A program made the translations under genes and the position numbers. A stretch of 64,000 nucleotides of DNA from Geothrix sp. SG200 (lineage in GTDB: Bacteria; Acidobacteriota; Holophagae; Holophagales; Holophagaceae): positions 1-64,000 of the forward strand of contig NZ_JAKZFR010000003.1 of the NCBI RefSeq assembly GCF_022808935.1, given 5' to 3'. Positions within the stretch are counted from its first letter, which is position 1. Each line of letters begins with the position of its first letter. Below, one piece after another: positions 1,080 through 5,163 of the stretch. The notes below the pieces were generated by a model, which was given only the letters and a program-made list of their open reading frames with translations, searched no databases and had not been told where the DNA came from.

Positions 1080-1598
1080 ATGGAACTTCGAGATACCCCA
1101 GACCAAACCACAATTTCAAAGAATGGGAAACGGAACTCAAGTAATTCCATTAAAATTGGAGTTTATCTATTCCAGGCGCCAACATTCTTCATCCTTCTCG
1201 CATTGCTCGCGGGGATAGCAAAAAATGCCATAGGGAGGTTCAAGCCAATTCCTGGGTACAAGTTTGTGATCGTCGCATCGTGTCTCTTTTTCTCAATACC
1301 CCTTGGCTTTGTTTTCAATAAGCTTGCCAAATTCACCTCCACCTTGAACTCACTTATGGGCTATTCCATTTGGACAGTCCTTGGAGGTTTGGTATGGGCA
1401 GCCGCTCTTTCCATTGCTTTCCAAATTGTTTCAATAACGTATCTTATAATCACATCGCCCCAAATCTTTTTACACATCTCCTGGCTAGATACCACAGGAA
1501 TTCTCTTGAAAACGTCAGTTATCCAAACATTCGTGTTCTGCCTTTTCCTTGTTCCGATTTACTTCCTCTACAGCAAACATTTTCGGTCCGCATCGTAG
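1080..1598 (+). CDS. Cassette-encoded integral membrane protein of unknown function (172 aa)
   Basis: ATG lies 5 bp after attC 3. A polar N-terminus of about 25 residues precedes four hydrophobic segments, near residues 26-46, 60-78, 92-127 (perhaps two passes) and 143-165. The stop TAG (1596-1598) overlaps the first base of attC 4, so coding sequence runs exactly into the recombination site. Base composition is markedly AT-richer than the chromosomal backbone beyond 15 kb, as expected for imported cassettes. No catalytic motif or known family is recognised. Confidence 0.7.
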   Translation: MELRDTPDQTTISKNGKRNSSNSIKIGVYLFQAPTFFILLALLAGIAKNAIGRFKPIPGYKFVIVASCLFFSIPLGFVFNKLAKFTSTLNSLMGYSIWTVLGGLVWAAALSIAFQIVSITYLIITSPQIFLHISWLDTTGILLKTSVIQTFVFCLFLVPIYFLYSKHFRSAS

Positions 1599-1721
1599 CC
1601 TAACCCTCCGCTCAACTCGGACCCCGCCTGCATTGCCACCCGCTCTCTCTCAGCTTCTCGCTATCTCGGCTCCGCTCATCGTCTCGGTGCAGGCGGGTCC
1701 GGTTAGCTGCTTTCGTTAGGC
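1598..1721 (+). repeat. attC site 4
   Basis: GCCTAAC 1598-1604 to GTTAGGC 1715-1721, 124 bp, GCGGGTCC arm variant; shares its first base with the stop codon of the preceding gene. Confidence 0.9.
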
Positions 1722-1760
1722 CGCTGAATTCACAAGATTCCAACTTTAGGTGCAAACCCC

Positions 1761-2423
1761 ATGGTACGAAAAGCACGCCAGGTCATCTCAGAGTTGCTCG
1801 CAGAGAAACAGCGGATCGTTACACAGTTCCACCCCCTCGTGGCTGATACTGGTAATCGTATTGAGGACCTTATCGATGGAACGGCTGTATTCCCTGGCGG
1901 GTCGGGCCTATGGCGTGGTCCAGGATTTCATGGTGCACTCCCAGAGAATTTTCCCGATTCGCCAATTATGATCATTGGTCATAACTTCGACAGCGAAACC
2001 GGCTACAAAAATTCAAAAATACGCGGTGGTGAATTGCAGGCACCACACACTTTCTGGGGTGTACTCCTCGCATACCTCAAGTCAGCAGAACTCAGTCCAT
2101 TTGATTGTTTCTTCACAAATGTTCTGATGGGCCTGAAACCCGGAAGCGCCACTGGGCCCATGCCTTCTTCGAAAATCTTCGAGAGCCAGTGTCTTCAATT
2201 TCTCGTCAAACAAATTCAAACGGTTCGGCCACGCTTCATTATCACTCTTGGTGTTGATGCCTACAAACGAGTCGATAAAGCACCCCTATCTGTCTCCCTG
2301 CATTCGGCAATGCACCCATCGGCTCGTGAATTCAAACCGCTTATCACCCGCGATCACCGAATTAATGAGCAAGGCCAGGCCATCAAAAATTCCCTTCGTC
2401 GCTACGGATTGGGCTTTCAATGA
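1761..2423 (+). CDS. Uracil-DNA glycosylase superfamily-like protein in a cassette (220 aa)
   Basis: Four segments appear in the order expected of the UDG fold: MIIGHNFDSETGY (about 70-82) in the place of the active-site motif A loop, FFTNVLMGLKPG (117-128), PRFIITLG (157-164) closing a core strand, and HPSAR (185-189) in the place of the DNA-intercalating HPS motif. UDG-fold enzymes remove damaged bases from DNA, but the motif A here has Asn-Phe-Asp instead of a textbook GQDPYH or GEAPG motif, so substrate and activity are open. No Fe-S cysteine set is present. Start is ATG 1761; no strong ribosome binding site is seen. The family call is inferred from motif order. Confidence 0.65.
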   Translation: MVRKARQVISELLAEKQRIVTQFHPLVADTGNRIEDLIDGTAVFPGGSGLWRGPGFHGALPENFPDSPIMIIGHNFDSETGYKNSKIRGGELQAPHTFWGVLLAYLKSAELSPFDCFFTNVLMGLKPGSATGPMPSSKIFESQCLQFLVKQIQTVRPRFIITLGVDAYKRVDKAPLSVSLHSAMHPSAREFKPLITRDHRINEQGQAIKNSLRRYGLGFQ

Positions 2424-2441
2424 ACTCACTTCTCCCACGCG

Positions 2442-2565
2442 GCCTAACCCTCCGCTCAACTCGGACCCCGCCTGCATTGCCTTACGCTCTCTCTCAACGT
2501 CCTGCTTCCTCGGCTCCGCTCAGCGCCTCGGTGCTGGCGGGGCCGGTTAGCTTCCATCGTTAGGC
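2442..2565 (+). repeat. attC site 5
   Basis: GCCTAAC 2442-2448 to GTTAGGC 2559-2565, 124 bp; arm reads TGCTGGCGGGG, one mismatch from the majority. Confidence 0.9.
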
Positions 2566-2582
2566 AGCCCAGGAGCCCGCAG

Positions 2583-4464: not shown

Positions 4465-4494
4465 CTCGTTCGCCCTTCTCTTTCGATCTGCTGG

Positions 4495-4740
4495 GTGGTG
4501 GGGCGCTGGTTCAGCTTCATCAGATTGGCTCACTCCAGCGGCAAAGCCCCGCCAGTTCTCGGTCTTCAGCGTTCACTTAATAGGGTTATCGCTTACTCAT
4601 CACCCGTCGGCCCATGGATTTCTGCCATCATCGAGGCCGCTTCAGCATCTCGGCCTTCATGTTCACGCGATAACTCCATCGTTCTCCTTTGGGTTCGTCA
4701 GCATGAACTTCCGCACTCACACAAGCAGGCTCAAATCTAA
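4495..4740 (+). CDS. 81-codon ORF in duplicated cassette, copy 2 (coding status doubtful)
   Basis: This is the second copy of the cassette at 130-443: same first bases after GTTAGGC (CTCGTTCGCCC), same length, same 81-codon frame starting at GTG. Conserved blocks include GGGCGCTGGTTCAGCTT, AATAGGGTTATCGCTTACTC, CCATGGATTTCTGCCATCAT and a terminal GTTCGGGGCGCTAC. Amino-acid differences are numerous relative to silent ones, so the frame may not be translated. It could be a structured RNA or a degenerate gene family. Function unknown. Confidence 0.3.
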   Translation: MVGRWFSFIRLAHSSGKAPPVLGLQRSLNRVIAYSSPVGPWISAIIEAASASRPSCSRDNSIVLLWVRQHELPHSHKQAQI

Positions 4741-4778
4741 GCGCGGCGCGTGTTCGGGGCGCTACCGCTTAGGGCTCG

Positions 4779-4908: not shown

Positions 4909-5163
4909 ATGCACGCAAAGCTCGAAGACTGGAAGAACGGTTGGTTTGGGCTTCGACTTGCAGCTAGCCCCCAGGAGATTGAGCAACTCATTACTCAGCT
5001 ACAGGAGCTGCTCGAAGACAATGGCCAACACTTTCACATTGGCTCCGATTACAAGGCTGAATCCGGCCTTGGTGATATTGAAATCTCTGTCCAAGATCCC
5101 TCCGAACCAGACAACCTCTTCCTGACCAGTCTTGCTATGCGGCCAGGCGAATCCATCCCATGA
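4909..5163 (+). CDS. Cassette-encoded small acidic protein of unknown function (84 aa)
   Basis: ATG 4909 lies 6 bp after attC 9. The protein is acidic and soluble: a tryptophan-containing start (KLEDWKNGWFGLRLA), a helix rich in Gln/Leu (EIEQLITQLQELLED), then QHFHIGSDY and GDIEISVQD, which look like strands. The size, acidity and strand/helix alternation resemble small immunity-type or regulatory proteins, but I cannot assign a family. No signal peptide. No toxin partner is adjacent. The stop is 6 bp before attC 10. Confidence 0.68.
   Translation: MHAKLEDWKNGWFGLRLAASPQEIEQLITQLQELLEDNGQHFHIGSDYKAESGLGDIEISVQDPSEPDNLFLTSLAMRPGESIP

Follow-up and report, generated by a model that had tools for sequence, protein, structure and literature searches.

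A gene cassette of Geothrix sp. SG200 encodes a predicted enzyme that, as judged by sequence comparison, belongs to a divergent and still unnamed family of the uracil-DNA glycosylase (UDG) superfamily, with a motif 1 of its own. The gene lies near the start of the window, by which we mean the whole 64,000-nucleotide stretch of DNA that was analysed. The explanation that we tentatively prefer is that its product, the window protein, is a stand-alone DNA glycosylase, kept most likely for conflict with phages or other invading DNA. It would excise a phage-type or altered base and would resemble the Brig enzymes without being a Brig orthologue.

Phage immunity by base excision is known from a small number of Brig enzymes, most of which came out of functional screens. 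Brig1 and Brig3 are defence enzymes of the UDG superfamily (PMC11078745, PMC13160076); Brig1 requires Y121 and E147 (PMC11078745), and Brig3 requires N50, E55, W100 and D127 (PMC13160076). A UDG domain is also among the defence proteins predicted by DefensePredictor (PMC13092281), and phage defence is a frequent function of integron cassettes, as cited in PMC12444791. The anti-phage cassettes of sedentary chromosomal integrons are likewise single-gene cassettes in a large array.

Results

The gene and its cassette

The reading frame is intact from its ATG to a TGA at 2421-2423 (Table 1). The four motifs from which a UDG-type protein had been proposed (GHNFD, FFTN, ITLG and HPSAR) are all present, ITLG at residues 161-164. 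A match to the Pfam UDG model (PF03167; 34.2 bits, cut-off 24.3), homologues with 49-51% identity and a confident UDG-fold model together argue that the frame is not open by chance. The C-terminal half falls some 40 residues short of its length in most homologues, so we considered whether the copy is truncated or broken. The short form is common to the homologues L012 and L013 and to L035 on a phage contig, and therefore marks a real subclade.

Table 1. Positions in the window of the UDG-fold gene, its cassette and the elements read in them
Feature	Position	Strand	Basis or remark
Upstream attC site, part of the preceding cassette	1598..1722	+	Repeat comparison
Whole gene cassette, 844 bp	1716..2559	+	Runs from one attC G/TTAGGC point to the next
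AGGTG, ribosome-binding-like site	1748..1752	+	8 nt 5' of the ATG, read in the sequence
Gene for UDG-fold protein of unnamed family, 220 aa	1761..2423	+	Pfam match, reading frame, fold model
Motif 1 GHNFD, residues 73-77	1977..1991	+	N75 matches the water-positioning Asp/Asn of other UDGs by alignment
FFTN, residues 117-120	2109..2120	+	N120 matches the base-recognising Asn by alignment
Motif 2 HPSAR, residues 185-189	2313..2327	+	H185 matches the leaving-group His by alignment
attC site of the UDG-fold cassette	2442..2566	+	Long hairpin predicted for the bottom strand, z -2.87

Near-identical attC-type repeats of 121 bp flank the reading frame on both sides. In the first 8 kb there are 14 of these repeats, which share 92% identity on average and have invariant ends, CCTAAC and CGTTAGG. 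The bottom strand of attC sites forms a long hairpin, as it is predicted to do here. The genome has at least 40 such sites, on contigs C4, C5 and C10. A single integron integrase (TIGR02249, 468.6 bits; cut-off 265) is encoded at the end of contig C8, with TAGTTAGGC sites between it and the end of that contig. Contig ends interrupt the linkage of the integrase to the window. The repeats, the integrase and the contig breaks are most simply explained by one large chromosomal integron that the assembly has split over contig ends. The gene thus stands in an integron cassette, as had been supposed: it is followed by an attC site with a folding bottom strand, the limits of the unit are at G/TTAGGC points, and the genome has a true integron integrase. 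A simple scan of the cassette found no sigma-70-like promoter.

Fold and active site

The AlphaFold2 model, built from a 23-row family alignment, has a pLDDT of 92.8 and a pTM of 0.91. Its best structural match is UdgX (Z 13.5, 3.0 Å over 167 residues); further matches are Thermus UDGa (Z 13.0), Xenopus SMUG1 (12.5), SMUG2 (11.4) and human TDG (10.2). Structures of UdgX, family-4 UDG, SMUG1 and TDG were all matched, with Z ranging from 13.5 to 10.1. Model confidence and Z scores together make the UDG fold secure; a model without that fold did not arise. All 23 aligned family rows match PF03167 at E ≤ 0.01. No Brig structure is among the best 50 structural matches listed, which is not evidence of absence.

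The named UDG families have a proline in motif 1. The family of the window protein lacks it. Its signature reads, in order, AFFPGGxGLW, G[HNQ][ND]F[DGH] (where motif 1 usually reads GxxPx), CFFTN and HPS; the N-terminal AFFPGGxGLW and a conserved W99 are further marks of the family. When motif 1 is aligned to that of family 4, G-H-N75-F76-D77 stands against G-E-G-P-G. Of 22 family rows, 20 have N or D at position 75, and all 22 have F or W, never Pro, at position 76. Conservation is as strict elsewhere in the putative active site: N120 is kept in 23 of 23 rows, H185 in 22 of 22 and W99 in 21 of 23. These equivalences to residues of known enzymes come from sequence alignment and not from superposed coordinates. 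The family rows and the alignment with family 4 support the suspicion that the active-site loop falls outside the named UDG classes.

Comparison with known enzymes

In structure the window protein comes closest to family-4 UDGs and UdgX (Z 13.5 to 12.6), with which it shares the order motif 1, core Asn, HPx. Family-4 NCBIfam models match it weakly (TIGR00758, 23.6 bits; cut-off 125.3). The GE[GA/Q]PG motif 1, KCRPP and the UdgX R-loop are all absent: GHNFD replaces the GE[GA]PG of family 4, and with C116 and C144 as the only cysteines, three of the four Fe-S cysteines are missing. In a maximum-likelihood tree the family-4 UDGs split from the window family at support 100/100. The host has a canonical family-4 UDG of its own, encoded by a separate gene (C5:203659-204117).

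UdgX has GEQPG and a KRRIH loop with a cross-linking His (PMC10359453, PMC10776899). Neither occurs in the window protein sequence. Motif 1 of SMUG1 (family 3) is GMNPG, against GHNFD here; the Asn is shared and the Pro is not. The likeness to SMUG1 lies in the fold (Z 12.5) and in the Asn, Asn and His at the catalytic positions; sequence similarity is weak (E 0.24). In family 2 (TDG/MUG) motif 1 is GINPG. Family 2 UDGs are without the motif-2 His (PMC5387724), and the window protein has GHNFD together with an H185 that is invariant in its family.

The Brig enzymes share with the window family membership of the UDG superfamily, encoding by a single gene, and mobile and defence-type contexts. 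By alignment, counterparts of the Brig motif-1 Asn and upstream Trp are probably present in the window family, which differs from Brig1 and Brig3 in its own AFFPGG signature. We placed the Brig residues E147 and D127 on the family through the Asn equivalence given in PMC11078745. Their acidic residue, two positions after the core Asn/His, is found in none of the 23 family rows; the position holds L122 in the window protein and Y, F, L, W or I in all 23. We therefore do not file the window protein as a Brig1 or Brig3 orthologue. By analogy, it may still act like a Brig enzyme.

Spread of the family

One genome of the same genus encodes a homologue with 43% identity to the window protein, and two other Acidobacteriota have homologues with 49-51% identity over most of the protein length. 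A scan of the genome-contig collection with the window protein as a single sequence gave no match. A four-row profile that included the same-genus homologue and two others found 23 loci in the collection of species genomes, and a profile search of viral contigs found three distinct genes of the family. With the window protein and a homologue from Cyanobacteria as queries, tblastn of phage and plasmid records gave no match. The family spans at least eight phyla, among them Acidobacteriota, Chloroflexota, Cyanobacteriota, Planctomycetota, Bacteroidota, Pseudomonadota (Acinetobacter), Bacillota (Soehngenia) and Verrucomicrobiota, besides phage contigs. It is rare wherever counted. In Acidobacteriota it occurs in 3 of 396 genomes; within the genus, 2 of the 37 genomes searched carry it, counting the host, and within one class 7 of 299. 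Such a rare and patchy spread over many phyla and viral contigs is unlike that of a housekeeping gene.

The maximum-likelihood tree groups the window protein with L012 (Bryobacterales UBA690), L013 (Acidobacteriaceae KBS 96) and L035 from a viral contig, at support 100/98; L035 is the closest outgroup of the window clade. Weak matches in the relatives G001 and G018 proved to be other UDGs, of GEAPG type. Another weak match, in the same-genus genome G002 (L064:2092-2862), is a UDG-like protein, related yet distinct, that has GQDWG and FFTNAVLGI; its gene is near a phage-type integrase-like reading frame. In a Ktedonobacterales MAG, two family copies lie in tandem (L023:2685-4674), and a further Acidobacteriota genome (G619) has three family loci, one with an internal stop.

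Neighbourhoods of the homologues

Family members are usually solitary genes; no constant partner gene accompanies them, which favours a protein working on its own. The chromosomal copies L013, L085, L087 and L088 are solitary and outside any defence island. An apparent operon in a Soehngenia MAG (L027:1947-8735) would join the UDG-fold gene with type IV (modified-DNA) restriction: two genes of type IV restriction type (PADLOC mREase_IV, E 4e-219 and 3e-103) and a HIT-like gene precede it on the same strand, separated by short gaps. The L012 copy adjoins AbiGi, NucS_C and DUF4238, and the L021 copy adjoins AbiEi/AbiEii. On the viral contigs L035 and L011 the gene is single, on the reverse strand, among structural genes. 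On a third viral contig (L037:6518-10697) genes for a SAM synthetase, an HNH nuclease, the UDG-fold protein and a ParB/N6_N4 methylase fusion are close together on the same strand; the annotated content of this cluster suggests DNA modification by the phage. At L017:7992-9466 the UDG-fold gene overlaps the start of the next gene by four bases. The product of that second gene, which has a GINPG motif and no Pfam match, is possibly another UDG-like protein.

PADLOC has no model or match for the window family, and PHROGs has no model for it and gave only a match at E 0.23. Enrichment of the family in defence islands was looked for in the neighbourhoods examined and not demonstrated. None of the homologues examined is in an integron context; they lie in phages or in ordinary chromosomal contexts.

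Discussion

How might such a protein work? As a single-domain, stand-alone enzyme it would flip a base out of DNA. The flipped base would be stacked by the conserved aromatics W99 and F44 and held by N120, and the glycosidic bond would be broken with the help of N75, acting on the water, and H185, acting on the leaving group. The product would be an abasic site in the DNA. We would expect the target to be a phage-type or otherwise altered base in invading DNA, in a role other than housekeeping repair.

We infer the role in defence from the rarity and mobility of the family, from the redundancy with the host UDG, from carriage by phages, and from the precedents of the Brig enzymes and of integron cassettes. 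The support for the earlier suggestion of anti-phage defence is circumstantial (rarity, horizontal spread, phage copies and some defence neighbours); against it stand the solitary state of most chromosomal copies, the missing Brig acidic residue and the lack of a PADLOC model or match. The related proposal of a new family of anti-phage glycosylases, with a catalytic site unlike that of Brig1 and Brig3, excising a modified base and traded singly by integrons and phages, strikes us as rather doubtful. The family is readily recognised from sequence, differs from the Brig enzymes in its catalytic motif, and is suited to synthesis and trial against phages with modified bases. Environmental integron cargo gains a probable DNA-base-directed enzyme, and the UDG superfamily is seen to contain more families without a name, in which the chemistry of motif 1 is new.

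The main rival to a glycosylase of phage conflict is a serious one: an accessory repair glycosylase for uracil or for deaminated or oxidised bases, with SMUG1-like chemistry (Asn, Asn, His), carried as useful cargo without a role in defence. This is a real possibility, if short of a probable one. The structure matches SMUG1 and family 4, all three SMUG1-type catalytic positions appear to be filled, and many copies are solitary in plain chromosomal contexts; yet the family is very rare for a repair enzyme, the host already has its canonical family-4 UDG, and motif 1 lacks the Pro, as the protein lacks the rest of the known uracil-pocket motifs. That same motif 1, unlike that of any UDG class named in the literature surveyed, with Phe or Trp for Pro in every row, would also fit a UDG-fold protein that is not a glycosylase and serves instead in DNA binding or sensing, or in action on free nucleotides or another partner. 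We think this improbable, as the three catalytic-type residues are almost invariant and pure binding would not obviously call for N75 and H185 together.

The further idea, of an action on single-stranded attC DNA and an influence on cassette recombination, found no support and is very hard to credit. All that speaks for it is the location in a cassette array. No integron was seen around the homologues examined. The cassette itself looks like ordinary cargo: it is one unit among more than 40, and has neither a distinctive position nor a link to intI. None of the 10 other cassette reading frames between 573 and 7830 of the window reaches a Pfam cut-off; the one at 4909-5163 has a sub-threshold match to the immunity protein Imm32 (E 0.008). 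The cassettes at 131-443 and 4466-4778 are 83% identical over about 314 bp and have an 81-codon reading frame in common, with 15, 12 and 15 differences at codon positions 1, 2 and 3. Since the differences fall equally on all codon positions, these two look like related non-coding cassettes.
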